Shown here one piece after another: positions 22,822 to 49,639 of a stretch of DNA of 51,365 nucleotides. The stretch is from Pseudorhodobacter antarcticus (GTDB lineage: Bacteria; Pseudomonadota; Alphaproteobacteria; Rhodobacterales; Rhodobacteraceae), in contig CAMBWO010000002.1 of the NCBI GenBank assembly GCA_945871285.1, positions 1 through 51,365 on the forward strand, given 5' to 3'. The stretch's first letter is position 1, and the number at the start of each line of letters is the position of its first letter. The notes beneath the pieces were generated by a model. It saw only the letters and a list, made by a program, of their open reading frames with translations, was not told where the DNA came from and made no database searches. Both the position numbers and the translations under genes were made by a program.

Positions 22822-22848
22822 GCCAGGTCCCATCGGAATTCAAGAAAA

Positions 22849-22876
22849 GGCCGGGCGGGCCGCAACCCGCCCGGCC
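22849..22876. promoter_or_regulatory. Intercistronic hairpin between binding-protein and fusion-permease genes, cassette 1
   Basis: GGCCGGGCGGG-ccgcaa-CCCGCCCGGCC, 11-bp perfect stem; minus-strand transcript continues CTTTTCTTG. Confidence 0.7.
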
Positions 22877-22885
22877 AGTGTCAGA

Positions 22886-23896: not shown

Positions 23897-23944
23897 CAGG
23901 TTTCCTCCCTAGATTGATTTTCCGTTGTCAGCCCCAACGCGGGG

Positions 23945-24928: not shown

Positions 24929-24982
24929 GCTGTCCCCTCCCCGGTCCAACCGACTTGACTCGCACCTCCACAATGATGAAAG

Positions 24983-24996
24983 TGAGCGAGCGCTCA
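24983..24996. promoter_or_regulatory. Palindrome TGAGCGAGCGCTCA, candidate TetR operator
   Basis: TGAGCG-AG-CGCTCA perfect dyad in the divergent region between permease and tetR. Confidence 0.6.
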
Positions 24997-25063
24997 GTTT
25001 TTTTTGTAATCCCCCTTTCCGACTCTGTCAATTCAGCTAAATAGTCACTGAAAGGAATCTCAC

Positions 25064-25765: not shown

Positions 25766-25834
25766 GGGCGGGCGATCGTTGATTGCCCAAACTCGGGCCC
25801 TTATGCTAACCGGAATGCCATGCAAGGAAGCCAC

Positions 25835-29188: not shown

Positions 29189-29225
29189 TCCATCCCCCAT
29201 TTTCCCCGCCAAGTCGAAAATTCGC

Positions 29226-30865: not shown

Positions 30866-30878
30866 CCCGTTCTCCCTT

Positions 30879-31907
30879 TCATGCCGCAAACAGCGTGGGC
30901 AGCGGCCTCAGCCCCGCCAAAAGCGCCGCTTCATCCACCGCCTCCAGTGTTGCCGGCTGCCAGTGCGGCGTGCGGTCCTTGTCGATCACCGCCGCGCGGA
31001 TGCCCTCATAGAAATCCCACCCTGTCAGGGCCAGGTCGCTCGCTGCAAACTCTCGGTCCAGACAGGTTTCCAGATCCGCCGACCCCGCCGCCATCCGCAA
31101 CAGATGCAGCGTCAAAACCAAAGAGGTGGGCGAGTTTCGGGCCAGCAGCGCCACCGTCTCGGCCGCAAACGCAGTCCCTTCGTCCCGCAGCACCTGCATG
31201 ATCGCGGCCATATCCCGCCCGGCAAAGGCCCGCTCGATCAGCCCGGCCTGTGCCAATAACCGCGACGGCCCCGGCTCGGCCCGATGTGCCGCAATCGCGG
31301 CCTCGGGGTCCACTCCGGCGGCCAGATCGGCCAGCAGCGCCGGAACCGCCCCGGACGGCACCATCGCATCGCCCAACCCCGCCGCAATTCCATCTGCCGC
31401 GCCGATCGTGGCCCCCGTCAGCCCGATCCACAGGCCCAACCCATGCGGTGCCCTCGCCAGCGCCCAGGTCGCGCCCACATCGGGGAAATAGCCGATTCCG
31501 ACCTCGGGCGTGGCGAACCTGACCGTCTCGGTCATCACCCGGTGGCGACCATGGATGCACAGCCCCACGCCGCCCCCCATGCAGATGCCATGCATCACCG
31601 CGACCCAGGGCTTGGCCAGCCGTGCAATCCGCGCATCCAGCCGGTATTCCTCGGCCCAGAATTGTATCGGTATCTCGGGCGCGCTGCGTCCGTGGGTCCA
31701 GATCGATTTGATATCCCCGCCCGCACACAGCGCCCGGTCGCCCTCACCGGTCAGGGCGATCACCTGCACCGCGGGGTCCGCCTCCAGACGGTCCAGACCA
31801 TCCTGTATCAGCCGCACCATTTCCAGATTCAGGCTGTTCAGCGCCTCGGGCCGGTTCAGATGCACCCGCCCCAGCGCGCCCTCAACCGATATGACAACCA
31901 CGCTCAT
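30879..31907 (-). CDS. Enoyl-CoA hydratase/isomerase, 3-hydroxyisobutyryl-CoA hydrolase-like
   Basis: HGICMGGGVGLCIHGRHRVMTETVRFATPEVGIGYFPDVGATWALARAP. Confidence 0.88.
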   Translation of the reverse strand: MSVVVISVEGALGRVHLNRPEALNSLNLEMVRLIQDGLDRLEADPAVQVIALTGEGDRALCAGGDIKSIWTHGRSAPEIPIQFWAEEYRLDARIARLAKPWVAVMHGICMGGGVGLCIHGRHRVMTETVRFATPEVGIGYFPDVGATWALARAPHGLGLWIGLTGATIGAADGIAAGLGDAMVPSGAVPALLADLAAGVDPEAAIAAHRAEPGPSRLLAQAGLIERAFAGRDMAAIMQVLRDEGTAFAAETVALLARNSPTSLVLTLHLLRMAAGSADLETCLDREFAASDLALTGWDFYEGIRAAVIDKDRTPHWQPATLEAVDEAALLAGLRPLPTLFAA

Positions 31908-33046
31908 CGGCCCGCCACCAGCGACCGCGCCACGATCAAGCGCATGATCTCATTGGTTCCTTCCAGAATCTGATGCACCCGCAGATCGCGGACGATCTTT
32001 TCCAGCCCATAATCGGCCAGATAGCCATAGCCGCCATGCAGTTGCAGAGACTGGTTCGCGATGTCGAACCCGGCATCGGTCACAAACCGCTTTGCAGCCG
32101 CGCACAGGACCGTCGCATCCGCAGCACCCGCATCCAGCGCACAGGCCGCCCGCCACAGGAAACTGCGCGCCGCCTCCAGGTCGATATTCATATCGGCTAG
32201 CCGGAATTGCAGCGCCTGCATCTCGGACAGCTTTTTGCCAAAGGCCCGCCGCTCGGCCATATAGCCCAGCGCCTTGCCCAAGGCTGCCCCGGCCCCGCCC
32301 AGCGAACAGGCCGCGATGTTCAGCCGCCCTCCGTCCAGACCCGCCATTGCAATGGCAAATCCCTGCCCCTCGGCCCCCAGCAGCGCCTCGGGCCCCAGCC
32401 GCACGCCGTCCATGATTACGGTACGGGTCGGCTGTGCGTTCCAGCCCATCTTGCGTTCATTGGCCCCAAACGACAGGCCCGCCACATCCCCTGGCATCAG
32501 AAAACACGAAATCCCCTTGGCCCCTGGCCCGCCGGTCCGCGCCATCACCAGATAGACCGCCGACGATCCCGCCCCCGAGATGAACTGCTTTTGCCCAGTC
32601 AACCGCCATCCTTCGCCGTCCCTCTCGGCCCGCGTGGTCAGCGCCGCCGCATCCGATCCCACCCCCGGTTCGGTCAGGCAATAGGAGGCGCGCTGCGTCA
32701 GGCCAACCAGAGCCGGGCACCAGTGCCGCCGTTGCGCCTCGGACCCGAATCGATCAATCATCCACACACACATGTTGTGGATCGAGACATAGGCAGCAAT
32801 CGTAGGGCAAGCCGCGGCCAGCGCTTCAAAGATCAGCACGGCGTCCAGCCGCCCCAACCCCGTGCCGCCCACATCCTCGCGCGTGTAGATGCCGCCCAGC
32901 CCCAGGGCCCCGACCTCGGCCAGCACATCCACCGGGAAATGCTTGTCGGCGTCCCACTGAACGGCAAACGGAGCTATTCGGTCGGCGGCAAAGCCCCGCG
33001 TCATCTCGACAATCGCCTGCTGGTCTGCGGTCAGGGCAAAGTCCAT
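31904..33046 (-). CDS. Acyl-CoA dehydrogenase, isobutyryl-CoA dehydrogenase-like
   Basis: MDFALTADQQAIVEMTRGFAADRIAPFA; YCLTEPGVGSDAA; LHGGYGYLADYGLEKIVRDLRVHQILEGTNEIMRLIVAR. Confidence 0.93.
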   Translation of the reverse strand: MDFALTADQQAIVEMTRGFAADRIAPFAVQWDADKHFPVDVLAEVGALGLGGIYTREDVGGTGLGRLDAVLIFEALAAACPTIAAYVSIHNMCVWMIDRFGSEAQRRHWCPALVGLTQRASYCLTEPGVGSDAAALTTRAERDGEGWRLTGQKQFISGAGSSAVYLVMARTGGPGAKGISCFLMPGDVAGLSFGANERKMGWNAQPTRTVIMDGVRLGPEALLGAEGQGFAIAMAGLDGGRLNIAACSLGGAGAALGKALGYMAERRAFGKKLSEMQALQFRLADMNIDLEAARSFLWRAACALDAGAADATVLCAAAKRFVTDAGFDIANQSLQLHGGYGYLADYGLEKIVRDLRVHQILEGTNEIMRLIVARSLVAGR

Positions 33047-33047
33047 G

Positions 33048-34229
33048 TCAAACCCGCTCAATCGCCAGGGCAATCCCCTGCCCGCCACCGATGCACATCG
33101 TGATCAGCCCGAACCGCCCGCCCGTACGGTGCAGGTAATCCATCGCCTTGACCGTCAGAATGGCCCCGGTCGCCCCCACCGGATGCCCCATTGCAATCCC
33201 CCCGCCGTCCGGGTTGACGCGCGCCGGGTCCAGCCCCAATTCGCGGTTCACTGCCAGCGCCTGCGCGGCAAAGGCCTCGTTCGACTCGATCACGTCGAAA
33301 TCCCCAATCGTCATCTCGGTCCGCGCCAGCAAGGCCCGCACGGCAGGCACCGGGCCAATTCCCATCACTCCCGGATCGACCCCGGCATGGGCATAGCCCA
33401 CGATCCGCGCCAACGGTTGCAGCCCGCGCGCCGCCACCTCTGCCCCCGAGGCCAGCACCACCGCCGCCGCCCCGTCATTGATGCCTGACGCATTGCCAGC
33501 CGTGACCGTTCCATCCTTGCGGAACGCCGCCCGCAAACCCGCCAGCGTCTGCGCCGTCGTGTCCCCCTTGGGATGCTCGTCCACCGCGAAACTGACGGGT
33601 TTGCGCCCCACCATCACCTCGACCGGCAGGATCTGCCGCGCAAAATGCCCCGCCGCTTGTGCCGCAGCACAGCGCCGCTGGCTTTCCAGCGCAAAATCGT
33701 CCTGATCCTGCCGCGTGATCCCGTAACGCTCGGCCACATTTTCCGCCGTGATCCCCATGATCCCATTGCCGAACGGATCGGTCAGCACGCCGGACAACCC
33801 ATCCACCAGCCCCGCATCCCCCATCTTTTGGCCAAAGCGCGCGACCTGCACATAATGCGGCGCGCGGCTCATCACTTCCGTCCCACCGGCCAGCGCCAAT
33901 CCGAAATCGCCCAGCATGATCCCCTGCGCGGCCGAGATGATCGCCTGCACCCCGCTGCCACACAGCCGGTTCAGCGTCATCGCCGGCACCTCGCGCGGGA
34001 TGCCTGCATTCATCGCGGCAATGCGGGCGACATAGGCATCCCGTGGCCCCGTCGGGATGACATTGCCAAACACCACATGGCCCAGCGCGTCCGGCACAAC
34101 CCCCGCCCGCGTCATCGCCTCGGCGGCCACCAGCGACCCCAGTTCGTCCGGCGTCTTGCCCATCAGGCTGCCGCCAAAGGCCCCGATGGCCGTGCGGACG
34201 CCGGACAGGATGTAAACAGCTTCGGCCAT
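33048..34229 (-). CDS. Acetyl-CoA acyltransferase (thiolase)
   Basis: [12 protein letters not shown] active site, [28 protein letters not shown]. Confidence 0.95.
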
Positions 34230-34240
34230 AGCGGGCTCCT

Positions 34241-35791
34241 TCAATTCTTGGGGTTCAGGGCCAGATGATCCGCCCGCAACTGATATTTCATAATCTTGCC
34301 GATCGAGGTTTTTGGCAAAGCGTCGCGATATTCGAACAGCGTCGGCACCTTGAAACGCGCTAGCGACCGCGCACACCAGTCCGCCAGCTCGGCATCCGTG
34401 GCGGCAGAGCGCAGGACGACAACCGCCTTGACCGCCTCATCCCGCAAGGGGTCGAACACCCCGATCACCGCACATTCCGACACCGACGGATGCTCGCCCA
34501 GCACGCGCTCAACCTCGCCCGCCGCGATATTCTCGCCCGCGCGCTTGATCACATCCTTGGACCTGTCCAGGAAATGCAGATAACCATCGTCATCAAACCA
34601 GCCATTGTCGCCTGTGATCAGACAGCCATCCTGCATCGCCGCGAGTGTCGCCTCGGCATTGCGGAAATAGCCCAGGAACAGCGGCGCGCCCCGCACCACG
34701 ATCCCGCCGCTTTGCCCGGCAGGCATGTCCTGCCCAGCCTCGTCCACCACCCGGATCTGCCGCCCCAGCACGGGCAGGCCAATGCAATGGCGTTTGGCGA
34801 CGCCGTGCCGCACCGGGTTGGCCGTGCAAATGCCAAAGGTTTCGGACAGGCCATAGCCTTCGATCAACCGCACCCCGAACCGGCCTTCAAAGGCACTCCA
34901 TTCCGCGTCCGAGGTTGGCAGGGCATAAAACGAAACCCGAACGTCGTGTTGTGCATCCGTCTTCTGCGCCGTTTGCGCCAGCAAGGTCCGCAGGATCATC
35001 GGCACGATGCTGATGAAGGTGCAGCGATGCCGCCTGACCTGCGCCCAATAGCGGCTGGCACTGTAGGTTTGCAGCAAGACGACCGTGCCCCCCACCGTCA
35101 ACGTCGGCATCACCCCCACGAACTGCCCGTTCACATGGAACAGCGGCAGCACCACGCAGGTCCGCTCGTCGCCGCGCAGCCCGAAATGCTGGGCCAGGGC
35201 GATGCCCTGCATCACGCTGCCATGATGCCCCAGAATCGCCCCCTTGGGCCGCGAGGTTGTCCCCGAGGTATAGATGATCTGCGACGCATCGCCGGGTGCC
35301 ACCACCACAGGCAGCGGGTCCGCGTGCGGCAGCCCCTCCAGCAGGTTGAACCCCGGCTCCGCCCCCTGATTTCGCGCCAAAACCCTGACCGCGACCGCAG
35401 GGCACGCCGCCTCGACCGCGCGGAACTTCGGCAGGAAAACCGGCTCGGTGATCAGCCCCGCGCAGCCCGCATCGTTCAGCAGATAGGCCAGTTCGTCAGG
35501 CGAGTAATGCACATTGACCGGCACCATCACCGCGCCGATCTGGTTGATCGCAAACCACGCCTGCAAGAATTCGGGGCAGTTCACCAGCATAACGGCCACG
35601 GTCTGCCTCGGCCCGATGCCCTGCGCCGCCAGATGACCCGCAAGCCGGTTCACCTTGTCGCCAAAGGCGGCATAGGTCAGTTCGCTGACGGCGCCCGCCT
35701 CATCCTCGAACACCACGAACGTCTTGTCCGGGTTCTGCGCCACTTGCAAATGCAACAGCCCCGGAACTGTCATCGTGCCCGCCACATCCAT
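34241..35791 (-). CDS. AMP-dependent acyl-CoA synthetase
   Basis: [49 protein letters not shown]. Confidence 0.93.
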
Positions 35792-36156
35792 CAGCTGATC
35801 CCCCCAGACACCAGCCGCACCGCGCCCTCGATCACAGGCTCACCACGCTGATTGACGCATTGAAACTCGATCCCTTCGGGGCCATCCGCCTTGACCACGA
35901 TCCCGATCGTGTCGCCGGGATGGCAGGGCCGCAGATAGCGCAGCTTCATCCCCGTTCCTTGCGGCAGCACCGCCAGGCCCAGACGCGCCTGCACGAGCCG
36001 AAAGACTGGCTCCAGCGGGATACAACCATGCGCAATCGTCCGGCCAAACGGCGTCGCCGCGGCAAAGTCGGGGTCGACATGGACCGGGTTGAAATCGCCC
36101 GAGATTGCCGCGTAGCTGTCGATCATGGCCTGCGTGATGGTGATGCTGGGGGTCAC
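35791..36156 (-). CDS. MaoC-like hotdog dehydratase
   Basis: AAISGDFNPVHVDPDFAAATPFGRTIAHG. Confidence 0.9.
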   Translation of the reverse strand: MTPSITITQAMIDSYAAISGDFNPVHVDPDFAAATPFGRTIAHGCIPLEPVFRLVQARLGLAVLPQGTGMKLRYLRPCHPGDTIGIVVKADGPEGIEFQCVNQRGEPVIEGAVRLVSGGIS

Positions 36157-36560
36157 GGCGCGCCCTCAGGGATGATCGCGGTGAATTTCACGCGGCAGAC
36201 CTGTTCGCCCGCCGGATTGGTCGTGTCCATCTGATAGGTCAGAAAACGGCGGCCTTTGCGTTCGAACCGGTCGGTTATCACCAGCTTCGTCACCAGCACC
36301 TCGCCCGCCTGCGCCGGAACGCCGTAGGTGTTTTCGTCCCCGACCCGGATCACGCCTGGCGGAAACACCTGCGCCTCCCATCCCAGCCGCAGCCCAAAGG
36401 CCAAGCACATCGAGGTGGGTGCCACGCCTTGATACTGCGCCCCATCGTAGCCCAGCAGCCCGCAAAACCGGTCAATCTCGGTCTGGGTCAGCAGGGTCTG
36501 CGCCCGGCATACCTCGCGCCCCAATTCCGCACCGGCATAGGTCGTCATCGGATGGGTCAT
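36153..36560 (-). CDS. MaoC-type N-terminal domain dehydratase subunit
   Basis: Hotdog protein, 4-bp overlaps with both neighbours; FPPGVIRVGDENTYGVPAQAGEVLVTKLVITDRFERKGRRFL. Confidence 0.75.
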   Translation of the reverse strand: MTHPMTTYAGAELGREVCRAQTLLTQTEIDRFCGLLGYDGAQYQGVAPTSMCLAFGLRLGWEAQVFPPGVIRVGDENTYGVPAQAGEVLVTKLVITDRFERKGRRFLTYQMDTTNPAGEQVCRVKFTAIIPEGAP

Positions 36561-37768
36561 CGCATCCCCGCCAACATCGTGGCGGGTTTTTCCAGCAGCG
36601 CCCGCAGTTCGGACCGGAACCGCCCCGCCACCGCTCCGTCAATCAGCCGGTGGTCAAAGGTCATGCTCATCATCATCATCGGGCGGATCACGACCTGGCC
36701 ATCGCGCACCACCACCTCGTCCGTGATCGCGCCAATTCCCAGAATGGCCGATTGCGGCGGGTTCAACAGCGGCGTCTCGAAATCCCCGCCATACGACCCA
36801 AAGTTCGAAAGGGTGAACGTCCCGCCCGTCGCATCCTGTTGGCCCAGCCGCCCCGCCCTTGCCCGCGCCGCCAGATCAATCCGCTCATGCGCAATCTCGA
36901 TCAGCGATTTGTGATCCGCATCCTTGATCACCGGCACGATCAGCCCATCGTCCAGCGCCACCGCCAGCCCGATGTTGACATGATCCCAGGTCACGATCTC
37001 ATCCCCGATGATCGAGGCGTTGATGTCGGGCATCCGCGCCAGCACAATCGCACAGGCCTTCAGCACGATGTCGGTGAACGTGACCCGCACCCCCAGCGCG
37101 CGCTCATTTGCCACACAAGACGCCCGCAGCGCCACGACCTCGGCCATGTCGACCCGCGCAAAGGCGGTCATCTGCGCCGACATCTGCAAGCTTTGCATCA
37201 TGTTGCGCGCAATGGTCCTACGCAGTCCCGCAAGCGGCCGCCGCAACGGACCCGGCCCTGTCGCCTCCACTTGTATCTGCACCTGTTCTGGCACCTCTGC
37301 CTGTCGCTGGATCGCCTGATCCACATCCCGGCGCAGCACCGCCCCATGCGCCCCGGTTCCCGTCAACCCGACCGGATCAATCCCCGCCCCGGTGGCCACC
37401 CGCCGCGCCAGGGGCGACACCCGCTTGCGCTGCCCAACGGCCATCGCAGCCGACACTTCCGCCCGCGCCACCACTGCCGCCACCGCAACAACCGGTGCGG
37501 CCCCCGGCTCCACCGCCGCCAAAGCCTCGGCAGCCGTCTCATACAGCCCGCCGATCACCGCGCCCACCAGGTGCACACTGTCCACCCCGGCAAAGCGCCG
37601 CAGATATCCCCCGGCATCCGCCTCGACCTCAGAGGTGATCTTGTCCGTCTCGATCTCGAACAACACCTCGCGCTTTTCGACACGCTCGCCATCGGCCTTG
37701 GTCCAAGCGGTCAGGGTGCAGTCGACCATCGTCAGGCCCAGCTTAGGTATCGCGATCAGATGTGCCAT
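36557..37768 (-). CDS. 2-oxoacid dehydrogenase E2 (dihydrolipoamide acyltransferase)
   Basis: Lipoyl ETDKITSEVEAD; peripheral-subunit-binding RVSPLARRVATGAGIDPVGLTGTGAHGAVLRRDV; catalytic FDHRLIDGA. Confidence 0.94.
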   Translation of the reverse strand: MAHLIAIPKLGLTMVDCTLTAWTKADGERVEKREVLFEIETDKITSEVEADAGGYLRRFAGVDSVHLVGAVIGGLYETAAEALAAVEPGAAPVVAVAAVVARAEVSAAMAVGQRKRVSPLARRVATGAGIDPVGLTGTGAHGAVLRRDVDQAIQRQAEVPEQVQIQVEATGPGPLRRPLAGLRRTIARNMMQSLQMSAQMTAFARVDMAEVVALRASCVANERALGVRVTFTDIVLKACAIVLARMPDINASIIGDEIVTWDHVNIGLAVALDDGLIVPVIKDADHKSLIEIAHERIDLAARARAGRLGQQDATGGTFTLSNFGSYGGDFETPLLNPPQSAILGIGAITDEVVVRDGQVVIRPMMMMSMTFDHRLIDGAVAGRFRSELRALLEKPATMLAGMR

Positions 37769-37778
37769 GCCGCTCTCC

Positions 37779-38756
37779 TCATGCCATCAGGTCGCGCACG
37801 GCGGCGACGATCGCATCGGTGTCGGGGTTCAGGAACTGGTCGAACTGCCGTCCGAACGGCGCAGGCGTGAATGGCGGCGACAACCGCCGCACCGGCTGGT
37901 CCAGGTCAAAGAACGCCCGCTCACCGATCTCGGCAGCCACTTCCGACCCAAAACCGAAATTCTTGTGCGACGACGACACCACCAGACAGCGGCTCGTCTT
38001 GCTGACCGAGGCCGTGATCGTGTCGAAATCCAGCGGCGAAATCGTGCGGGGGTCGATCACCTCAACCGAAATCCCGTCCACCGCCAGCCGCTCTGCCGCC
38101 GCCAACGCCCGCGCCACCATCAACCCCGAGGCGACAACCGTCACATCCGTGCCCTGCCGCTTCACATCGGCCTTGCCGATCGGGATCAGGAAATCCTCGT
38201 CATCCTCGATCTCCTCCTTGATCCGGTGCATGGCGATGTGTTCGATAAAGATCACCGGGTTGTCGTCCCGGATGGCCGATTTCAGCAGCCCCTTGGCATC
38301 GCGCGGGGTCGATGGCATCACCACCTTCAGCCCCGGAATATGCGCCACGATTGCCTCCCAGGCCTGGGAATGATGCGGCCCGATGCCCATTTCCACCGCG
38401 GATGACATCCGGATGACCAAGGGCATCTTGAACATCCCGTCATAGATGTAATGCGTCTTGGCCGCCTGATTGGCGATCTGGTCCAGACACAGGCCCAGAA
38501 AGTCGATGAACATGATCTCGACAATCGGCCGCCGCCCCGCCATCGCGGCACCCACGCCCAGACCCACGATGATCTCCTCGCTGATCGGCGTGTCGCGCAC
38601 GCGCATCGGTCCGAACGCATCCAGCAACCCGCGCGAGGCGCCAAAGGCCCCGCCCGCCACCGCCACGTCCTCGCCGATCAGGAACACGCGGTCATCCCGC
38701 GCCATTTCCTCGCGCATCGCATCTATGATCGCCCAGCAATAGGTCTTGGTCGGCAT
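37779..38756 (-). CDS. 2-oxoacid dehydrogenase E1 beta subunit
   Basis: AIIDAMREEMARDDRVFLIGEDVAVAGGAFGASRGLLDAFGPMRVRDTPISEE. Confidence 0.95.
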   Translation of the reverse strand: MPTKTYCWAIIDAMREEMARDDRVFLIGEDVAVAGGAFGASRGLLDAFGPMRVRDTPISEEIIVGLGVGAAMAGRRPIVEIMFIDFLGLCLDQIANQAAKTHYIYDGMFKMPLVIRMSSAVEMGIGPHHSQAWEAIVAHIPGLKVVMPSTPRDAKGLLKSAIRDDNPVIFIEHIAMHRIKEEIEDDEDFLIPIGKADVKRQGTDVTVVASGLMVARALAAAERLAVDGISVEVIDPRTISPLDFDTITASVSKTSRCLVVSSSHKNFGFGSEVAAEIGERAFFDLDQPVRRLSPPFTPAPFGRQFDQFLNPDTDAIVAAVRDLMA

Positions 38757-38770
38757 GGGATTCCCTCAGG

Positions 38771-38818
38771 CTCAGGCGAAAACGGGCTCAGGCGACAACA
38801 GGCTCAGGCGAAAACTTT
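38771..38818. repeat. Three tandem 16-bp units spanning the E1-alpha stop codon
   Basis: ctcaggcgaaaacggg / ctcaggcgacaacagg / ctcaggcgaaaacttt. Confidence 0.85.
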
Positions 38819-39754
38819 CAGCAGGGCGGTTTCAGGCGCGGGCAGCGGGCTGTCCAGCGCAAAGGTCACCGCCTCCGCCACCTCGGCCGCGACCGCCGCC
38901 TCCAGCGTAACCAGACGGTCCTCCTCGACGCCCACCTCGGCCAGCAGATGCCTGCGAAACCGCGCCACAGGGCAGCGCGCCTTCCACTCGGCCTCTTCGT
39001 TGCGGGTGCGATATTTCCGCGGATCGCCTTCGAAATGGCCACCCCAGCGATAGGTTTTCAACTCCAGCAGCGTCGGCCCGTCGCCGGCCCGTGCCCGGTC
39101 GACCGCCCGGCCCGCAGCGGCCCGCACCGCCAGCACGTCATTGCCGTCGACAATCTCGGAGGCCACACCGTAACCCGTGGCCCGCGCCGCGACATCGGGC
39201 TGACCGACGGTCTGGACAAACGGCGTCATCTCGGCATACAGGTTATTCTCGCACACCATGATCAAGGGCAGCTTCCACGCCGCCGCCACGTTCAGCGTCT
39301 CGCCAAAGGCGCCGTTGTTGCTGGCCCCTTCGCCAAAGAACACAACCGACACGGCCCCCAGACCGTCCATCTGCGCCGCCAGAGCCGCACCGGCCCCAAT
39401 CGGCATTCCCGCGCCGACGATGCCGTTTCCGCCCAAAATCCCCAGCGCCGGATCGGCCGCGTGCATCTCGCCGCCCCGCCCGCCGCAAATCCCGGTGGCC
39501 TTGCCCAACATTTCTGCCATCATCGGCTTCAACGCCATGCCCTTGGCCAGATAATGCCCGCGCCCCCGATGGTTCGACACGACATAGTCGGTGTCATTCA
39601 GGCCCGAACAGACGCCCACCGCGCAGGCCTCTTGCCCCAGATACGAATGGATATACCCTGGAAACACATTCTTGGCGAACAGGTCGTTCAGCTGCGCCTC
39701 GCATTCGCGGATCAGCAGCATCGAACGGTACAGCGTGATAGGGTCTTGGGTCAT
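38804..39754 (-). CDS. 2-oxoacid dehydrogenase E1 alpha subunit (thiamine diphosphate dependent)
   Basis: YIHSYLGQEACAVGVCSGLNDTDYVVSNHRGRGHYLAKG; FFGEGASNNGAFGETLNVAAAWKLPLIMVCENN. Confidence 0.95.
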   Translation of the reverse strand: MTQDPITLYRSMLLIRECEAQLNDLFAKNVFPGYIHSYLGQEACAVGVCSGLNDTDYVVSNHRGRGHYLAKGMALKPMMAEMLGKATGICGGRGGEMHAADPALGILGGNGIVGAGMPIGAGAALAAQMDGLGAVSVVFFGEGASNNGAFGETLNVAAAWKLPLIMVCENNLYAEMTPFVQTVGQPDVAARATGYGVASEIVDGNDVLAVRAAAGRAVDRARAGDGPTLLELKTYRWGGHFEGDPRKYRTRNEEAEWKARCPVARFRRHLLAEVGVEEDRLVTLEAAVAAEVAEAVTFALDSPLPAPETALLKVFA

Positions 39755-39761
39755 GGTGCCC

Positions 39762-40925
39762 TCAATAGCTTTTCGGCAGACCAAGCCCGACCTGGGCGAT
39801 ATAGTTCTTGCCCATCTCGTTCGTGATCGGCGCAAAGATCAGCTGACGTATATCACGGTAATAGCGCTGCATGTGGTATTCCATCGCAAAGCCATAGCCG
39901 GCCAGAACCCGCATCCCCCGGTCGGTCGTGCGAAACGCCGCCTCGGATGCGAAATATTTGGCCATCGACGCGGGCAGTGAACAATCCTGCCCCTGATCCT
40001 GCATCCACGACGCCTTGTAGGTCATCAGCCGCGCAAGCTCGATCTCGGTCAGACTGTCGGCCAGGGGGTGCTGCACCGCCTGGAACTGCCCGATGGGTCG
40101 GCCAAAAGCGGCGCGTTCCTTGGCATATTGCACCGCATCGTCCAGCGCCCCTTGGCCCAGACCCACGCAAACAGCGGCGACAAAGATGCGTTCGTTGTTC
40201 AGCGTGTCGATGATGGCATGCCAACCCCGGCCCTCGGTGCCGACGACCGAGGATTTCGGAACGCGCACGTCCTTGTAGCTGACCTCGTAGGAATGCAGGA
40301 ACTTCGACCCCAGCTTTTCGATCTTGCGATAGGTTATCCCGGGTGTGTCCTTTGGGATCAGGAACACCGTCAGCCCGTGCGACAGCTTATCCGGGTTCCG
40401 CGCCGTCCGCGCCACCACGAACAGCCAGGACGCGATGTTCAGCCCCGTCGTCCAGATCTTGGCACCGTTGATGATGAAATCATCGCCGTCGGCAACTGCC
40501 TTGGTTTTCATCGCACCCAGAATGTCGGTGCCGCCATCAGGTTCGGTCATCGACAGGGCAAAGTGAACATCCCCCGTGGCGATGCGGGGCAGAAACTCCT
40601 GTTTCTGTTCCGCACTGCCGTGCCGTTCGATCGTCACCGCCCCGAACGAGATGTCCAGCCCATAGGCCAGCGCCACGGTTGAGGAATGCCGCGCCAGTTC
40701 CTCCAGCACGATGGTTTCCTCGACTACGCCGCCGCCAGTGCCGCCAAACTCCTCGGGAACGGAGGCGCCCATCAGTCCGATCTCGGCCATCTTGTCCAGC
40801 AATCCCTCCGGGAAGGTGCCCTTGGCGTCCCACTCGGCCACCGCATCCTTGGGCATTTCGCGTTCCACGAACTTTCGCACCAGATCGCGCAGAGCAAGCT
40901 GATCCTCGGTGAAGTCAAAGTTCAT
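39762..40925 (-). CDS. Acyl-CoA dehydrogenase
   Basis: MNFDFTEDQLALRDLVRKFVEREMPK; FALSMTEPDGGTDILGAMKTKAV. Confidence 0.94.
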   Translation of the reverse strand: MNFDFTEDQLALRDLVRKFVEREMPKDAVAEWDAKGTFPEGLLDKMAEIGLMGASVPEEFGGTGGGVVEETIVLEELARHSSTVALAYGLDISFGAVTIERHGSAEQKQEFLPRIATGDVHFALSMTEPDGGTDILGAMKTKAVADGDDFIINGAKIWTTGLNIASWLFVVARTARNPDKLSHGLTVFLIPKDTPGITYRKIEKLGSKFLHSYEVSYKDVRVPKSSVVGTEGRGWHAIIDTLNNERIFVAAVCVGLGQGALDDAVQYAKERAAFGRPIGQFQAVQHPLADSLTEIELARLMTYKASWMQDQGQDCSLPASMAKYFASEAAFRTTDRGMRVLAGYGFAMEYHMQRYYRDIRQLIFAPITNEMGKNYIAQVGLGLPKSY

Positions 40926-40971: not shown

Positions 40972-40998
40972 CGTACCTATCAGTATCTAAGTCTACTA
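40972..40998 (-). promoter_or_regulatory. Conserved promoter/operator element, copy A
   Basis: Minus strand TAGTAGACTTAGATACTGATAGGTACG, 46 nt before acyl-CoA dehydrogenase start. Confidence 0.65.
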
Positions 40999-41147
40999 AT
41001 GGGTATGTTGTCAACTGCCTGTCGTCGATTGATCGCGCCCGGCGTCGAAAAAGAGGTGTCATGTGCCCACTTGCCCCGAAGCTCAATCGCCCTGTCGCGG
41101 CAGGGGGCCCATATTCCAGTTGACATGATCTCGGATCGGCTACTAAC

Positions 41148-41174
41148 TAGTATGCAATGATACTGAAAGGTAGG
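41148..41174 (+). promoter_or_regulatory. Conserved promoter/operator element, copy B
   Basis: TAGTATGCAATGATACTGAAAGGTAGG, 47 nt before CoA ligase start; 20/27 identical to copy A in gene orientation. Confidence 0.65.
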
Positions 41175-41221: not shown

Positions 41222-42820
41222 ATGAACCAGAATGCCACGGCAGTTGACGGCGGCCCCGCAGTCCCGGCCGAACGGGTTTTTCATTACATGCTGCAAAACC
41301 GCGCCGCCGCCGCCTCAGGGCAAAAACCCTTTCTCGTAATGGACAACCGCAGCCTGACCTGGGCCGATACGGATGAACAGGTGAACCGTTGGGCCCACGG
41401 CATTGCCGCCTGCGGCGTCACCAAGGGCGACCGCGTGCTGTTGATGATCCCCTCAGGCATCGAACATGTGCTGATCTGGCTGGCCCTGTGCAAACTTGGC
41501 GCGATCATGGTGCCGGTCAACGACGCTTATCATGGGGCGATGCTGCGCCATCAAGTCAACGATTCCACGGCGGCGCTGGCCATCGTCGCCGCCCGCCATC
41601 TGCCCGCTTGGGCCAATCTGGCCGCCGATCTGCCGCATCTGCGCCAGATCGCCGTGATGGGTGGCCCCGCCCCGGACACGCCGGCGCCATGGTCCTGGTC
41701 CGACGCCGCCCTGCTGTTCTGCCCCGACACCACACCCTTGCCCCGCATCGTCCACGGTCATGACCCGATGGCGATCTTCTACACCTCGGGCACCACTGGC
41801 CCGTCCAAGGGCGTGCTGTACAGCTATGCCCAGGCCTGGACCTCGGCCCAGGTTCCGGCCGAGTGGTGCCTGCCCGAAGACGTCTTTTACATGTTCCTGC
41901 CGATGTTCCATGTCGGCCTGTCCCAGATGGTCGGCCTGGTCCTGCTGTCCGGGGCCACGATGGTCATCCGCGAGAAGTTCAGCGCCAGCGCCTTCTGGCC
42001 CGATGTGCGCCGCCATGGCGTGACGATAACGATCCTGCTCTCGACCATGCCCAATTTCCTGATGTCACGCCCCGCCGACCCCGCGGATCGCGCCCATCCC
42101 CTGCGCCACGTCATCATCATCCCGCTGCCCGCCGACCTTGAGGCCTTCAAAACCCGCTTCGACGTCCAGATCGCCACCTGGTTCAACATGACCGAGGTCA
42201 GCGTGCCCCTGCGTTCGGACGGCTTTAGCGTGACGGGTGGCACCTCAGCGGGCCGCCCCCGCCCCGGCGTCACCGCGCGCATCGTCGACGACCTTGACCA
42301 GCCGCTGCCCGCGGGCATGGCCGGCGAACTGGTCCTGCGCGCCGATACCCCGTGGGAGTTTTGCCTGGGCTACTGGCAAAACCCCGCCAAGACGGTCGAG
42401 GCCTGGCGCAACCTGTGGTTCCACACCGGTGACGCCTTCCGCACCGATGACGCGGGCAATTTCTACTTTGTCGACCGGCTCAAGGACACGATCCGCCGCC
42501 GCGGTGAAAACATCTCGTCCTTCGAGGTCGAGCGCGAGATGGAAAGCCACCCCGCCGTTCTGGAATCCGCCGCCGTCGCCGTGCCCTCGGGCTGGGGCGA
42601 GGATGACATCAAGGCCGTCGTTGCCCTGAAACCCGGCGCCACCCTGACCGCGCCAGACCTGCACGCCCATCTTGCAGCACGGCTGCCCGCCTACATGGTG
42701 CCCCGCTTCATCGAAATCCTGGCCCAGGAATTGCCCAAAACCCCGACCGGCAAGACGGTCAAGGCCGCCCTGCGCGCCACCGGCACCGCCGCCGCCTGGG
42801 AATCCGGGGGCAAAACATGA
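41222..42820 (+). CDS. AMP-dependent CoA ligase (CaiC-like)
   Basis: IFYTSGTTGPSKGVLYSY; DRLKDTIRRRGENISSFEVE; PKTPTGKTVKAAL. Confidence 0.93.
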   Translation: MNQNATAVDGGPAVPAERVFHYMLQNRAAAASGQKPFLVMDNRSLTWADTDEQVNRWAHGIAACGVTKGDRVLLMIPSGIEHVLIWLALCKLGAIMVPVNDAYHGAMLRHQVNDSTAALAIVAARHLPAWANLAADLPHLRQIAVMGGPAPDTPAPWSWSDAALLFCPDTTPLPRIVHGHDPMAIFYTSGTTGPSKGVLYSYAQAWTSAQVPAEWCLPEDVFYMFLPMFHVGLSQMVGLVLLSGATMVIREKFSASAFWPDVRRHGVTITILLSTMPNFLMSRPADPADRAHPLRHVIIIPLPADLEAFKTRFDVQIATWFNMTEVSVPLRSDGFSVTGGTSAGRPRPGVTARIVDDLDQPLPAGMAGELVLRADTPWEFCLGYWQNPAKTVEAWRNLWFHTGDAFRTDDAGNFYFVDRLKDTIRRRGENISSFEVEREMESHPAVLESAAVAVPSGWGEDDIKAVVALKPGATLTAPDLHAHLAARLPAYMVPRFIEILAQELPKTPTGKTVKAALRATGTAAAWESGGKT

Positions 42821-43794
42821 CCCGCACGCGATCGAAACTCACCCAGGGCCGCATCGTGCTGGCCATCGCCATCATCGCCTTTGCCACGTTCTCGTTGCTG
42901 GTTCCGGGATTTCTGTCGGCGGGCAATGTCTCGCGCCTGTTGCAGAACGTCTCGATCCTCGGCATCCTTGCCATGGGCATGGCCCTGTCCATCATCGGGC
43001 GCGGCATCGACCTGTCGATGGTTGCCTCGATGGCCGTCTCGGTCGCCTGGATGCTGGCCGAGATGAATGCAGGTGCCTCCTTTGCCCATGCCTTCGGTTA
43101 TGCCCTGATATTCAGCATCGCGGTCGGCCTGATCAACGGCGTCCTGATTGCCTACGTGGAAATCCCGCCCATCTTTGCCACCCTTGCCATGGGCACCGCG
43201 ATTTACGGCTTTGGCCGGGTGTTCCTGCTGGCCTCGGATGTCAATTACCTGCCCGACAGCTGGGCCTGGCTGAACACCCTGGCCACCGCCGCCCCCTTGG
43301 GCATTCCCGTCTCGGTCCTGTGCTTTGGTGCCGTCTGCGGCATCGGCCACCTGTTCCTGCGTCGGGCCCGCGAAGGGCGTTACATCTACATGATGGGCGA
43401 CAACCCCCAGGCCGCCCGCATCACGGGCGTGCCCCTGCGCGTGATGATCGTCGCGCAATATGTCCTGACCTCGCTGGTCGCCCTGACGGCGGGCCTGCTG
43501 ATGGCCGCCCTTGTTGCCACGATGAACACGCGCATCGTCGGCTCGACATATGTCTATGACATCATCCTGGTCGCGGTTCTGGGCGGCATCAGCCTGTCTG
43601 GCGGGCGCGGCGGGGCGGGCAGCGTGATCGTCGGCACCCTGCTGATCGGCATCCTGCTGAACGGGATGACCATGATGAACCTGGGCTACACCACCCAGAA
43701 CGTGATCAAGGCGCTGATCCTCTTGGCCGCCCTGATCATGGATTCGCTGGTGAACCCCCGCGACGAACAGACATCCCAGCAGGGAGACATCTGA
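42817..43794 (+). CDS. RbsC-type ABC permease (unfused), cassette 2
   Basis: LGILAMGMALSIIGRGIDLSMVASMAVS...GGISLSGGRGGAGSVIVGTLLIGILLNGMTMMNL; 4-bp overlap with CoA ligase. Confidence 0.94.
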   Translation: MTRTRSKLTQGRIVLAIAIIAFATFSLLVPGFLSAGNVSRLLQNVSILGILAMGMALSIIGRGIDLSMVASMAVSVAWMLAEMNAGASFAHAFGYALIFSIAVGLINGVLIAYVEIPPIFATLAMGTAIYGFGRVFLLASDVNYLPDSWAWLNTLATAAPLGIPVSVLCFGAVCGIGHLFLRRAREGRYIYMMGDNPQAARITGVPLRVMIVAQYVLTSLVALTAGLLMAALVATMNTRIVGSTYVYDIILVAVLGGISLSGGRGGAGSVIVGTLLIGILLNGMTMMNLGYTTQNVIKALILLAALIMDSLVNPRDEQTSQQGDI

Positions 43795-43832
43795 AACCAC
43801 CACTTCACAACCAATCCAGGGAGGACAGGAAC

Positions 43833-44849
43833 TTGAAGATCACCACCACACTCGTCACCGCCGCGACCCTTTGCCTTGCCGTGCTCGCAAGCCCGCTCGC
43901 AGCGCAGGACGCCACACCCGGCGCAGGCTTTTACAACGCGCTCAAGGGCAAGAAGATCGGCTTTGTCCCCATCGCGATGGGCTTCAACGAAACCCAGGCC
44001 TGGCGCACCGCGATGGAACGGCAAGCCGCCGCCCTTGGCTATGAAATCATCGTCCGCGATCCGAACTGGAGCATCGAGGCCGGTATCCAGGCGATCAATT
44101 CCCTGATCGACGAAAAGCCCGATATCCTGATCATCGAAAACATCGACAACAGGTCCTACAACCGCATGGTGCAGAAATCCATCGCGGCGGGCATCCTGAC
44201 CATCCAGACCCAGCAGCGGTCCGAAATTGCCAGCGACGCCTATATGGGGCCGGACTGGAACGAGATGGGCCGCAATGCCGTCGACGGCATGGTGCAACTG
44301 TGCGGCACGGACAGCGGCAAGAATGGCAAGATCGCCATCATTCAGGGTGCCCTGACCGCCCCGGCCAGCCTGCTGCAACAGGCCGGCATCGACGAGGCGC
44401 TGAAAGCGCATCCCGAAATCACGGTCGTTTCCAATCAGGCCGCAGACTGGGACGCGACCAAGGCCTATCAGATCGCCACCACCGTCCTGCAACAGGAACC
44501 CGACCTGTGCGGCATCGTCGGCTTTTGGGATGTGGCCGATGCAGGCATCGCCTCGGCTGTGAAAGAGGCCAATTTGCAGGGCAAGGTCGCCGTCATCACC
44601 TCGGGCAGCGGCGCGCGCGACTCGGCCTGTGACAAGATCGCCTCGGGTGATTTCACCTTCTACACCAGCTACAACACCGCAGGTCAGGGCCGCGATCTGA
44701 ATGCGATCATCCGCACCCTGCTGCAAACCATGCCAGCGCCGGGCAGCAAGCCCTTTGATCTGCTCAGCCCGCTGATCCGCATCACGAAAGACACGATGAC
44801 CCCCTCGTCGTGCTGGACGCTGGACGAACTGGCCCAGATCGGAGGCTAA
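43833..44849 (+). CDS. Periplasmic sugar-type substrate-binding protein, cassette 2 (TTG start)
   Basis: Signal ...AVLASPLAAQ; KGKKIGFVPIAMGFNETQAWRTAMERQAAALGYEIIVRDPNWSIEAGIQAI. Confidence 0.92.
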   Translation: MKITTTLVTAATLCLAVLASPLAAQDATPGAGFYNALKGKKIGFVPIAMGFNETQAWRTAMERQAAALGYEIIVRDPNWSIEAGIQAINSLIDEKPDILIIENIDNRSYNRMVQKSIAAGILTIQTQQRSEIASDAYMGPDWNEMGRNAVDGMVQLCGTDSGKNGKIAIIQGALTAPASLLQQAGIDEALKAHPEITVVSNQAADWDATKAYQIATTVLQQEPDLCGIVGFWDVADAGIASAVKEANLQGKVAVITSGSGARDSACDKIASGDFTFYTSYNTAGQGRDLNAIIRTLLQTMPAPGSKPFDLLSPLIRITKDTMTPSSCWTLDELAQIGG

Positions 44850-44854
44850 GCCGC

Positions 44855-44885
44855 CTTGCCGACCGCGCACCCTGCGGTCGGCAAG
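44855..44885. promoter_or_regulatory. Intercistronic hairpin between binding-protein and fusion-permease genes, cassette 2
   Basis: CTTGCCGACCGC-gcaccct-GCGGTCGGCAAG, 12-bp perfect stem. Confidence 0.7.
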
Positions 44886-44991
44886 CCGATTCCTGCGCAG
44901 AGATCGCAACGGAGCTTTCGAAAACTCCGGGTGCCCAATCGCGGCGGCGGCCCCCCCTGGCCGTCCCCTAGTTGCCAAACCGAGCAAAACC

Positions 44992-47112
44992 ATGACCCGT
45001 GACGACCTTGTCCGCTGGCGGTATCGCCTGATCCCCAACAACGTGCTGGGCGAGATTCTGTCCAAAACCTGGATAGACAACGCCGTTCCTGTCCTGCTGC
45101 TGTCCATCCTGCTGGCGGTCTTTGGCACGCTGGTGCCGAACCTTCTGTCGACGGGCAACCTCAGCAACCTGTCGCAGACGGTGGGGGAATATCTGCTGAT
45201 GGGTCTGGGCCTGACCATCGTCGTGATGGCGGGCGGGATTGACCTGTCGGTCGGCTCGGTCTTTGCGCTGGCCAATCTCTTGGTCATCGCGCTGGCCGGT
45301 TGGGCGGGCCTGTCGCTGTGGGTGGCGGTGCCGCTGACCTTGCTGGCGGGCGGGTTGGTCGGGCTGGTGAATGGCGTCCTTGTCGGCTACCTGCGCCTGC
45401 GCGCCTTTCTGACCACGCTCGTTACCCTGATCGTGGTGCGCGCGCTGGTGGACAGCCTTTTGCTGGGCTATTCTCAGCAAATCGGCGCCGCCCCGATTGT
45501 TTCGGGCTTTTGGGATTACCTGGCCTTCGGCACCTTTTACGGCATGGCCGCCAGCTTCATGGCCGCCGTCGCCTTGGCCGTGGCCGTTCATGTTTTCCTG
45601 ACCCGCCTGCGGCCCGGCTGGCACATCATCGCCGTCGGCGGATCGCGCCGGGCGGCCCATAACGCCGGGATCGACGTGCGCCGCACGGTCTGCCTGACCT
45701 ATGTCGCCTCGGGCGTGCTCGCCGCCCTCGCCGGCGTCTTTTACGCCGCCCGCCTGATGAGCCTTGGCGCCGAAACCGGGGTGGGCCTTGAAATCACGGT
45801 CCTGACCGCCGTCGTCCTTGGCGGCACCTCGCTTGGCGGCGGGCGCGGTTCGGTGGTCAAGACCGTGCTGGGCATCATCATCGTGGTCGTCATCACCAAC
45901 AGTCTGCTGCGCTTCAACCTGCCCAGCGGTTCCTCATCCCTCGCCCTTGGCATCATCCTGCTGCTCGCCGTCGCCATCGACGTCCGCTGGGTCAAGAACA
46001 AACGCAAGGTCCTGGACCAGACCTACGTCGCCCCCACCTATTTCGAGCTTCCCCCTTTGCCGGATGCCCGCCGCGGGGCCGCCACCCCCTATGCCGTGAA
46101 TGACCACCTCGCCTCAGCCGAACCCATCGGCCTTGGCCTGCTCGACGGTCCCGAGGATGTCATTCTGGACACCGACGACAACCTGTACACCGGCAGCCGC
46201 GATGGCAACATCCTGCGCCTGATGGCCCCCGACTACAAAACCATCGAGCATTTCGCCCATATCGGCGGCCAACCCCTCGGCCTCGCCTTCGACCGGGCCG
46301 GCAACCTGGTAACCTGCGTCGCGGGGATGGGCCTTTATATGGTCCGCCCCAACCGCGAGGTTGTGAAACTGTCCGATGAAACCAACCGCACCCTGTTTTC
46401 CATCATCGACGACAGCCGGATGCGTCTTGCCGACGACCTTGACATCGCCCCTGATGGCCGGGTGTTCTTCAGCGAGGCCACCATCCGCTATTCCCTGCAC
46501 GACTGGATGGTCGACGCCCTCGAAGGGCGCGGCAATGGCCGCATCATCTGTTACGATCCCCGCGACGGGTCCTCGCGCACCGTCCTGCCCCGCCTGCAAT
46601 TTCCCAACGGCATCTGTATGGTGCCGGATGGCCAATCTTTCCTCTATGCCGAAACCTGGGGCTGCCGCGTCAGCCGCTATTACTTCGATGGCCCCAAAAA
46701 GGGCCGCACCGAAATCGTCATCGCCAACCTGCCGGGCTACCCCGACAACATCAACCGCGCCTCGGATGGCACCTTCTGGCTTGCCATGATCGGAATGCGC
46801 ACCCCGGCCTTCGATCTGTCGCAACGCATGCCCGGCTTTCGCCGCCGCATGGCAATGCAGGTCGCGCGTGACCAGTGGGTGTTCCCCAACCTCAACACCG
46901 GCGGCGTGATCAAGTTCGACCTTGCAGGTCAGGTCCTGCAATCGCTGTGGGATGGCGAGGGAGGCCGCCACCCGCAAGTCACCTCGATGCGCGAACACAA
47001 GGGCTGGCTCTACCTCGGCGGCATCTTCAACAACCGCATCGGGCGCATCAGACTTCCCGACGCCGACCAGACCTGGACCGCACAGGCGTCCTATTGGGGG
47101 GCCAAATCATGA
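44992..47112 (+). CDS. Fusion: RbsC-type ABC permease + C-terminal strictosidine-synthase/SMP-30-like propeller, cassette 2
   Basis: LGLTIVVMAGGIDLSVGSVFALANLL...LGGTSLGGGRGSVVKTVLGIII then DGPEDVILDTDDNLYTGSRDG...QFPNGICM...YAETWGCRVSRYYFDGPKKG...PGYPDNI; 706 aa. Confidence 0.94.
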   Translation: MTRDDLVRWRYRLIPNNVLGEILSKTWIDNAVPVLLLSILLAVFGTLVPNLLSTGNLSNLSQTVGEYLLMGLGLTIVVMAGGIDLSVGSVFALANLLVIALAGWAGLSLWVAVPLTLLAGGLVGLVNGVLVGYLRLRAFLTTLVTLIVVRALVDSLLLGYSQQIGAAPIVSGFWDYLAFGTFYGMAASFMAAVALAVAVHVFLTRLRPGWHIIAVGGSRRAAHNAGIDVRRTVCLTYVASGVLAALAGVFYAARLMSLGAETGVGLEITVLTAVVLGGTSLGGGRGSVVKTVLGIIIVVVITNSLLRFNLPSGSSSLALGIILLLAVAIDVRWVKNKRKVLDQTYVAPTYFELPPLPDARRGAATPYAVNDHLASAEPIGLGLLDGPEDVILDTDDNLYTGSRDGNILRLMAPDYKTIEHFAHIGGQPLGLAFDRAGNLVTCVAGMGLYMVRPNREVVKLSDETNRTLFSIIDDSRMRLADDLDIAPDGRVFFSEATIRYSLHDWMVDALEGRGNGRIICYDPRDGSSRTVLPRLQFPNGICMVPDGQSFLYAETWGCRVSRYYFDGPKKGRTEIVIANLPGYPDNINRASDGTFWLAMIGMRTPAFDLSQRMPGFRRRMAMQVARDQWVFPNLNTGGVIKFDLAGQVLQSLWDGEGGRHPQVTSMREHKGWLYLGGIFNNRIGRIRLPDADQTWTAQASYWGAKS

Positions 47113-48152
47113 TCTCCTGGGTCCGCTCCCGCATCGACACCTTTCTGGGCCAGGGCGACGCCGCCGTGACCGTCCCGCCGATGGACGGCGCGCTGTCGCC
47201 CAACACCCGGCTGGACCGCGCCGCCCTTGTCGCACGGATGGATTCCCCCGACGACATCGCCCAGGGTGACGCCACCTATGTCTCCAGCGGCAACACCGTC
47301 TACCGCCTTGCGCCGGACGGCACCCCCGAACCCTTTCACCACTTTGCTGAAACCATCACCTGCCTTGCCGCACGGGGCGACCGGCTGGCCGTGGGCCAGG
47401 CCGACACCATCATCCTGCTGCACGAAGGCTGCGAAACCATCGTTTCCGTCCCATGCCCCACTGCGCTTGCATTCAACGGCGACACCCTGATCGCGACCCA
47501 AGGCTCCAGCCGCAATGCGCCGCACCAGTGGAAACATGACCTGATGCAGCGCGGATCGACCGGTGCCGTCTGGCAGATCGCCCCGAACGCCGCACCCAAA
47601 CCCCTCGCCACCGGGCTTGCCTGGCCGAACGGCATCGCCATCACGCCCATCGGCATCGTCATCTCGGAAAGCTGGCACCACCGCCTGATCCGGCTTGGCA
47701 CCGCCCAACCCGTCCTGTCCGACCTGCCCGGCTATCCCGCGCGCCTCGCCCCGGCGCGGGATGGCTGGTGGCTTGCCCTTTTTGCCCCGCGCGGCCAACT
47801 GGTCGAATTCGTCCTGCGGGAACGCCGCTACTGCACCCGCATGATGGCCGAGATTGACCCCGACAACTGGCTTGCCCCCGCCATCGCCCCGCCCAAAAGC
47901 TTTCTTGAACCCATGATGGGCGGGGCGCTGCGCTCCCACGGCTTCGCCAAACCTTGGGCGCCCTCAAACTCCTATGGGCTGCTCGTGTGCCTTGACGCCC
48001 ATTTCCGCCCGATCCGCAGCTTTCACAGCCGCGCCGATGGCACCCGCCACGGCATCACGGCGGCACTGGACCTCGGGTCACATGTCCTCGTCGCCTCGCA
48101 CGGCGGCAACGCGCTGCTCAAACTTGACCCGACGGCGGGGGACCGACCATGA
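47109..48152 (+). CDS. Stand-alone SMP-30/strictosidine-synthase-like beta-propeller protein, cassette 2
   Basis: MISWVRSRIDTFLGQG...VPPMDGALSPNTRL; GLAWPNGIAI; DLPGYPARLAPARDGWWLALF; ATGA overlaps on both sides. Confidence 0.82.
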   Translation: MISWVRSRIDTFLGQGDAAVTVPPMDGALSPNTRLDRAALVARMDSPDDIAQGDATYVSSGNTVYRLAPDGTPEPFHHFAETITCLAARGDRLAVGQADTIILLHEGCETIVSVPCPTALAFNGDTLIATQGSSRNAPHQWKHDLMQRGSTGAVWQIAPNAAPKPLATGLAWPNGIAITPIGIVISESWHHRLIRLGTAQPVLSDLPGYPARLAPARDGWWLALFAPRGQLVEFVLRERRYCTRMMAEIDPDNWLAPAIAPPKSFLEPMMGGALRSHGFAKPWAPSNSYGLLVCLDAHFRPIRSFHSRADGTRHGITAALDLGSHVLVASHGGNALLKLDPTAGDRP

Positions 48153-49639
48153 CCGAACCCCTTGTCTGCCTGTCCCAGATCACCAAGGAATATTTTGGCG
48201 TTCCCGCCATCCGCGCTGTCGATTTCACGGTCTGGCCCGGCGAAGTCCACGCCCTTGTCGGGGAAAACGGGGCCGGAAAATCCACCCTGACCAAGGTCAT
48301 GGTCGGCATCACCGCCCCCACCTCGGGCACCATCGCGGTTGACGGCCAGCTCGTCACCCTGCGCTCCCCGGCCGAGGCGCTCAATCTGGGCCTCGCCATG
48401 GTGTTTCAGGAAACCAGCCTCGTGCCGTCGATGACGGTGGCGCAGAACCTGTATCTCGGTCAGGAACATTTCTTCACCCGCCTGCGCGGCATGTATATCG
48501 CCGCGCAGCAATTCCTCCAGTCGCTGAACTTCAACGTCGATCCGATGACCCCGGTCGCGTCCCTTGGTGCGGCGCAAAAGCAGATGGTCGAAATCGCCCG
48601 CGCCGTTCTGCGCAAGGCCCGGCTGATCATCTTCGATGAACCCACCGCCGCCCTGACACCCGAGGAAAAGCATCACTTCTTCGCCCTGATCGAACGGCTC
48701 AAGGCCAGCGGTGTCGCCGTGGTCTTCATCTCTCATGCCATCGAAGAGGCGTTGCAAATCGCCGACCGCATCACAGTCCTGCGCGATGGCGAGGTGGTGA
48801 CAACCGACGCCGCCCAGACCTTTGACCGCGCTTCCATCATCCGCGCCATGGTCGGCCGCACCCTGTCGGACGAACTTTACACCCGCAAGGATGGCCAGAC
48901 GCGCCCGCCTCAGGACCTTGTCCTGTCGGTGCAAAACCTGTCGATGGGCTCGATGGTCCGCAACACGTCGTTTTCCGTCTATGCCGGTCAGGTGACGGGC
49001 ATCTTTGGCCTGATCGGCTCGGGGCGGACCGAAACCGCCAAGGTCGTGGCCGGGGTGCTGAAACGCAACCTGTTTCACGGCGGCAAGGTCAGCCTTTTCG
49101 CCCGCGCCGTCCGCTACCGGATGCCGCGTCAGGCCATGCTGGACGGCATCGTCTACGTGACCGAAGACCGCAAGACCGAAGGCTTTTTCGAAGGCATGTC
49201 CATCGCCGAAAACATCTTTGCCGGCCGCCTGACCGCCCGGGGTCCCCGCGTCGTCAGGCCGGCCCAGATGATGAAACTGGCCGAGGATTGGCGTGACAAG
49301 CTGAACATCCGCGCCATTGATGCGGATGCCCGCGTCGTCGAACTGTCCGGCGGCAATCAGCAAAAGGTGGTGGTCGCCAAATCGCTGGTCCAGCGCCCGA
49401 AACTCGTGATCTTTGACGAACCGACCCGCGGCGTCGACGTGGGCGCCATCGCCGAGATTCACGCCATCATCAAGGGTCTGGCCGATGACGGCCTTGCCGT
49501 GGTGGTCATCTCCTCTTACCTCCCCGAAGTTCTGAACCTGTCGGACCGCATCCTGGTGGCCCGCCAAGGCCGCATCGTCGAGGAATTCGCCCCCCAGGAC
49601 GCAAGCGAAGAGACGATCATGTATGCCGCCGTCCACTGA
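48149..49639 (+). CDS. Sugar-type (RbsA-like) ABC transporter ATP-binding protein, cassette 2
   Basis: GENGAGKSTLTKVMVG, GAAQKQMVEIARAV, LSGGNQQKVVVAKSL, DEPTRGVDVGA; 496 aa, close paralog of 18165 gene. Confidence 0.95.
   Translation: MTEPLVCLSQITKEYFGVPAIRAVDFTVWPGEVHALVGENGAGKSTLTKVMVGITAPTSGTIAVDGQLVTLRSPAEALNLGLAMVFQETSLVPSMTVAQNLYLGQEHFFTRLRGMYIAAQQFLQSLNFNVDPMTPVASLGAAQKQMVEIARAVLRKARLIIFDEPTAALTPEEKHHFFALIERLKASGVAVVFISHAIEEALQIADRITVLRDGEVVTTDAAQTFDRASIIRAMVGRTLSDELYTRKDGQTRPPQDLVLSVQNLSMGSMVRNTSFSVYAGQVTGIFGLIGSGRTETAKVVAGVLKRNLFHGGKVSLFARAVRYRMPRQAMLDGIVYVTEDRKTEGFFEGMSIAENIFAGRLTARGPRVVRPAQMMKLAEDWRDKLNIRAIDADARVVELSGGNQQKVVVAKSLVQRPKLVIFDEPTRGVDVGAIAEIHAIIKGLADDGLAVVVISSYLPEVLNLSDRILVARQGRIVEEFAPQDASEETIMYAAVH

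Follow-up and report, generated by a model that had tools for sequence, protein, structure and literature searches.

A putative 32-bp TetR operator shared by the divergent promoters of a catabolic operon and a CoA ligase/ABC transporter cassette in Pseudorhodobacter antarcticus

Two back-to-back gene groups, one predicted to break down an acid and the other to import a substrate, were found to carry the same putative regulatory site in a 51,365-nt stretch of Pseudorhodobacter antarcticus DNA (contig CAMBWO010000002.1), referred to here as the window. The two sites are very probably copies of a single 32-bp operator, bound by the TetR-family protein TetR2, which would jointly repress the divergent promoters until it is released by an acyl-CoA. 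Within this model, we infer the binding itself, repression rather than activation, the stoichiometry of two dimers per operator and the identity of the inducer. Judged from its sequence, the arrangement appears to be a familiar type of TetR gene switch, newly delineated here at two back-to-back gene groups. What had been a resemblance between two promoters becomes a testable regulon, in which a named candidate repressor is matched with a defined 32-bp element and with target promoters across several genomes, and one of two adjacent TetR genes can be provisionally assigned to one operator. The switch also provides a handle on the pathway substrate, because TetR2 is expected to be induced by one of the pathway intermediates.

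The catabolic operon is on the minus strand and is led by an acyl-CoA dehydrogenase gene (39762..40925). The remaining run of genes (27324..39760) encodes E1 alpha, E1 beta, E2, a MaoC-like protein, MaoC, a CoA ligase, a thiolase, a second acyl-CoA dehydrogenase, 3-hydroxyisobutyryl-CoA hydrolase, 3-hydroxyisobutyrate dehydrogenase, two enoyl-CoA hydratases and a zinc alcohol dehydrogenase; an E3 gene was not observed among them. The dehydrogenase, the E1 alpha/E1 beta/E2 genes of a 2-oxoacid dehydrogenase-like complex and the MaoC genes make up a core at 36557-40925, which is kept in genomes G216 and G801 and in Pseudohoeflea beside differing transporters. On the plus strand, an AMP-forming acyl-CoA ligase gene (41222..42820) leads cassette 2, a sugar-type ABC cassette (42817..49639) with genes for a permease, a binding protein, a fused permease (permease plus strictosidine-synthase-like domain), an SMP-30-like protein and an ATPase. 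A paralogous sugar-type cassette, cassette 1, lies on the other side of the catabolic genes (18165-24928), and both encode a fusion of a permease with a strictosidine-synthase-like domain as well as a second SMP-30-like protein. The adjacent genes tetR1 (25064..25765) and tetR2 (25820..26464) are both on the plus strand, and tetR2 is followed by a glutathione S-transferase-like gene (26594-27232).

The resemblance had been described as a pair of 27-mers, and both their coordinates (40972-40998 on the minus strand and 41148-41174 on the plus strand) and their identity (20/27) were reproduced. When the alignment was extended past them, the 27-mers turned out to be the right-hand portion of a longer inverted repeat. 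The element proposed by the first-pass annotation is therefore present, but it had been drawn too short; the left arm was overlooked and the true length is 32 bp. The pattern is TAC-N6-GTA-N8-TAC-N6-GTA, which can also be written as TAC-N5-AGTA-N8-TACT-N5-GTA. Putative operator 1, at the catabolic operon promoter (40974..41005), reads TACCCATTAGTAGACTTAGATACTGATAGGTA on the minus strand and has an exact core (12/12). Putative operator 2, at the promoter of the CoA ligase and ABC cassette 2 (41141..41172), reads TACTAACTAGTATGCAATGATACTGAAAGGTA on the plus strand. The unit TAC-N6-GTA occurs four times in the 51-kb window, and all four occurrences are arms of these two operators.

Both operators were found again in relatives. 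The gene set is rare; among 298 family genomes, 2 encode a close relative of the dehydrogenase, as do 3 of the 16 genus genomes. Two genus relatives, one of which is a Pseudorhodobacter antarcticus MAG (L013), have the same divergent gene pair and the same pair of elements with a different spacer sequence. Scans were conducted with a matrix built solely from the two window sites. Two sites in a genus relative scored 34.9 and 30.2, and the next match scored 10.0. Over 39.8 kb of the locus in Pseudohoeflea sp. DP4N28-3 (L015/G694), four sites scored 29.4, 22.6, 20.5 and 20.5, followed by 6.5; they precede the dehydrogenase, the CoA ligase, a separate enoyl-CoA hydratase unit and tetR2. As a control, a matrix from four Pseudorhodobacter sites reached a maximum of 11.8 over 200 shuffles. 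The genome G801, a distant relative, was reached via its TetR2 homolog, and its top three matches to the window-only matrix were at the dehydrogenase promoter (19.2), at the promoter of a gene that starts at L067:14341 (18.4) and at the ABC binding-protein promoter (18.1), compared to a highest maximum of 13.7 in 300 shuffled trials. Across eleven sites from four lineages, each site retains 10-12 of the 12 core bases, whereas the 6- and 8-base gaps are variable; the independent lineages are few (one genus, Pseudohoeflea and G801). The earlier proposal of a single operator governing both the catabolic operon and cassette 2 is well supported by the recurrence of the site pair at the same divergent region in relatives, by its absence from unrelated places and by its company with a TetR gene that has its own copy in Pseudohoeflea.

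The presence of four TAC half-sites in the 32 bp suggests that two TetR2 dimers bind next to each other, so that one dimer would occupy each TAC-N6-GTA and two dimers each operator. The centers of the two units are 20 bp apart, which is about two helical turns. A similar dimer site is used by DarR, a mycobacterial and rhodococcal TetR repressor with the operator ATACT-N4-AGTAT (PMC10636190). Its 20-bp operator, TAGATACTCCGGAGTATCTA, contains TAC-N6-GTA, Lys44 reads T-x-C, and the crystal has two dimers per operator (PMC10636190). TetR2 and DarR are homologous by sequence (E 3e-17), and the recognition helix with Thr-Lys and Tyr-Tyr is present in TetR2 too, with K59 at the place of DarR Lys44 and both tyrosines retained. 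However, the DNA-contacting Gly45 of DarR is Pro60 in TetR2, so the pair of Lys44 and Gly45 is not preserved. DarR has overlapping sites within 20 bp, whereas two full TAC-N6-GTA units stand side by side here. Dimers of QacR also overlap on their operator, as in DarR. A further difference is that the TetR2 targets are a catabolic operon and an importer, with no sign of c-di-AMP as a ligand.

We tentatively suggest that two complete DarR-type dimer sites stand in tandem within the operator, with the dimers on one face of the DNA, that this architecture is specific to the subfamily and that it couples a portable catabolic core to the importer of the host. If this is true, the dehydrogenase/E1-E2/MaoC core would be coupled to whichever importer the host acquired. 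A less likely variant of the main model is that a single central TetR2 dimer sits on the inner AGTA-N8-TACT dyad and that the outer TAC and GTA provide minor contacts. This inner dyad is exact at both window sites, but the outer TAC and GTA are conserved about as well as the inner ones, and the spacing of the DarR dimer site is TAC-N6-GTA.

At both predicted promoters, the 32-bp dyad is downstream of a TTGACA box. The probable -35 box of the catabolic operon (41009..41014, minus strand) and the possible -35 box of the CoA ligase promoter (41120..41125, plus strand) are both where the first-pass annotation had placed them, but their distances to the element are unequal, with 3 nt upstream of operator 1 and 15 nt upstream of operator 2. 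We infer the -35 assignment, since a strict sigma-70 consensus scan found no full promoter over either site. The 3-nt gap on the dehydrogenase side is identical in both relatives compared, whereas the gap on the CoA ligase side is 15 nt in the window and 3 nt in the relatives. Compared with the relatives, the window CoA ligase promoter has 12 additional bases from TTGACA to the operator (41126-41140). When eight promoters were compared, the box was 3 nt before the element in five, one of these being TTGACG. In Pseudohoeflea, the hydratase unit has a gap of 22 nt, and the best box at the tetR2 promoter is TTGAGT, 5 nt from the element. The spacing to the start codons had also been described as matched. 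The 27-mers do lie 46 nt from the ATG at 40925 (minus strand) and 47 nt from the ATG at 41222 (plus strand), but this agreement is a coincidence, given that the gap from the 32-bp element to the dehydrogenase is 48 nt in the window, 64 nt in a genus relative and 83 nt in Pseudohoeflea.

According to the proposed mechanism, TetR2 would occupy both copies of the operator and cover the DNA immediately downstream of the -35 boxes, and with it the -10 region, excluding RNA polymerase. Both the catabolic operon and cassette 2 with its CoA ligase would be silenced in concert. TetR2 would then be freed by an inducer, in all likelihood an acyl-CoA formed from the imported acid via either CoA ligase (41222-42820 or 34241-35791), and its release would switch on import, activation and breakdown simultaneously. 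It seems improbable that TetR2 instead activates here, or represses one promoter and activates the other. Some TetR-family proteins are known to act as activators, and the geometry of the two promoters is not identical because of the 15-nt gap at operator 2 compared to 3 nt elsewhere. However, a protein bound to these sites would obstruct the polymerase, given their position downstream of the TTGACA boxes, and the characterized relatives KstR2 and FadR are repressors. The same is true of MbdR and DarR (PMC4424350, PMC10636190).

If TetR2 is a repressor, a pathway acyl-CoA is the likely class of inducer, as judged from MbdR and from other TetR repressors that control acyl-CoA catabolism. KstR2, FadR and AibR are repressors of this kind. 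MbdR of Azoarcus responds to 3-methylbenzoyl-CoA, the first CoA intermediate, and its operators overlap the promoter (PMC4424350). Its system resembles ours in that a TetR-type palindromic operator is repeated across the promoters of one catabolic cluster, including those of its own gene and of a CoA-ligase gene. It differs in that the pathway is aromatic and anaerobic and in the spacing of the operator, ATAC-N10-GTAT (PMC4424350) versus TAC-N6-GTA-N8-TAC-N6-GTA here. A fold search returned KstR2, FadR (Bacillus), AibR and PfmR as neighbors of the TetR2 structure model, and some of these were also matched by sequence; the search is only a hint, since the model has low confidence (mean pLDDT 63, below 50 in the DNA-binding part). 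These four proteins regulate other gene sets, and their operators differ from the 32-bp element. A literature search for the regulon found nothing relevant.

Comparison of the genomes points to TetR2 as the likely binder, not both TetRs. TetR2 has the TetR N-terminal HTH domain (PF00440, 2.6e-15) together with PF17932 (3.4e-23), and its recognition helix, GATKPFVYYH (residues 56-65), is invariant down to 53% overall identity, including in G801. Every genome with the conserved element at this gene set has a TetR2 ortholog, with identities of 86% in the genus relatives, 82% in Pseudohoeflea and 53% in G801. TetR2 and the site co-occur across the genomes compared, and G216 is without both. Its dehydrogenase is 80% identical and its dehydrogenase, E1, E2 and MaoC genes are at 59-80% identity, but no element was found at the dehydrogenase locus and the best match to TetR2 in the genome was 28%. 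In Pseudohoeflea, 35 nt separate one element (G694:C1:337017-337048) from the tetR2 ATG that follows it, and no TetR1 ortholog was found (best 22%) despite the four copies of the element. TetR2 is the predicted repressor because of this site before tetR2 where TetR1 is missing, and because TetR2 and the element are lacking together in G216. Signs of autoregulation are limited to Pseudohoeflea and, weakly, to G801, where two weaker sites before tetR (9.1 and 7.9) are inside the shuffled range, since no operator copy was found before tetR2 in the genus of the window, where tetR2 follows tetR1 (best score 7.2 in L064).

Binding of the element by TetR1, or by a mixture of TetR1 and TetR2, is very unlikely. 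The two genes are adjacent, lie 15 kb from the element, share the Pfam pair PF00440/PF17932 and are both kept in the genus relatives. However, the four Pseudohoeflea elements are accompanied by a TetR2 ortholog without TetR1, and the recognition helix of TetR1, GLSMGAIYNY, differs from that of TetR2. A separate palindrome, GTGAGCGAGCGCTCAG (24982..24997), also precedes tetR1, between it and ABC cassette 1. As a candidate TetR1 operator that differs from the 32-bp element, it is the probable target of TetR1 at cassette 1. The core of this palindrome is conserved in the relative L064, and its 14-mer is matched exactly only once in the window; the assignment to TetR1 comes from two close genomes.

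The sequence GATACTGAWAGGTA has two exact copies in the 4.6-Mb assembly, both within the studied intergenic region, which answers in the negative the question raised by the first-pass annotation of whether the motif is frequent at unrelated loci. The exact 32-bp dyad was likewise found at two places in the same assembly, both of them the operators, and in 0 of 297 other family genomes. One near match elsewhere (C86:11964, 1 mismatch) was rejected, since a reversed control pattern was equally frequent (2 versus 2 per strand, counted after the two window sites were removed). The best 27-mer match between the two upstream halves (about 148 nt each) was 20, and 100 Markov shuffles gave a mean of 15.6 and a maximum of 19; the 20/27 pairwise match on its own is thus only moderately significant, because shuffles reach 19/27. 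Nevertheless, an origin of the similarity by chance, or by duplication of a promoter stretch that takes no part in regulation, is hardly credible and in effect refuted, because the 12 core bases are conserved across lineages while the gaps vary, and the sequences flanking the 32-bp element at operators 1 and 2 do not match.

A search of the plasmid collection for the dehydrogenase gave no match. Plasmid-borne homologs of TetR2 reach a maximum identity of 40%. On one plasmid (CP023455.1; L069 16229-16260), a weaker element with a score of 18.1 lies about 200 nt past the gene of a 40% identical TetR2 homolog.
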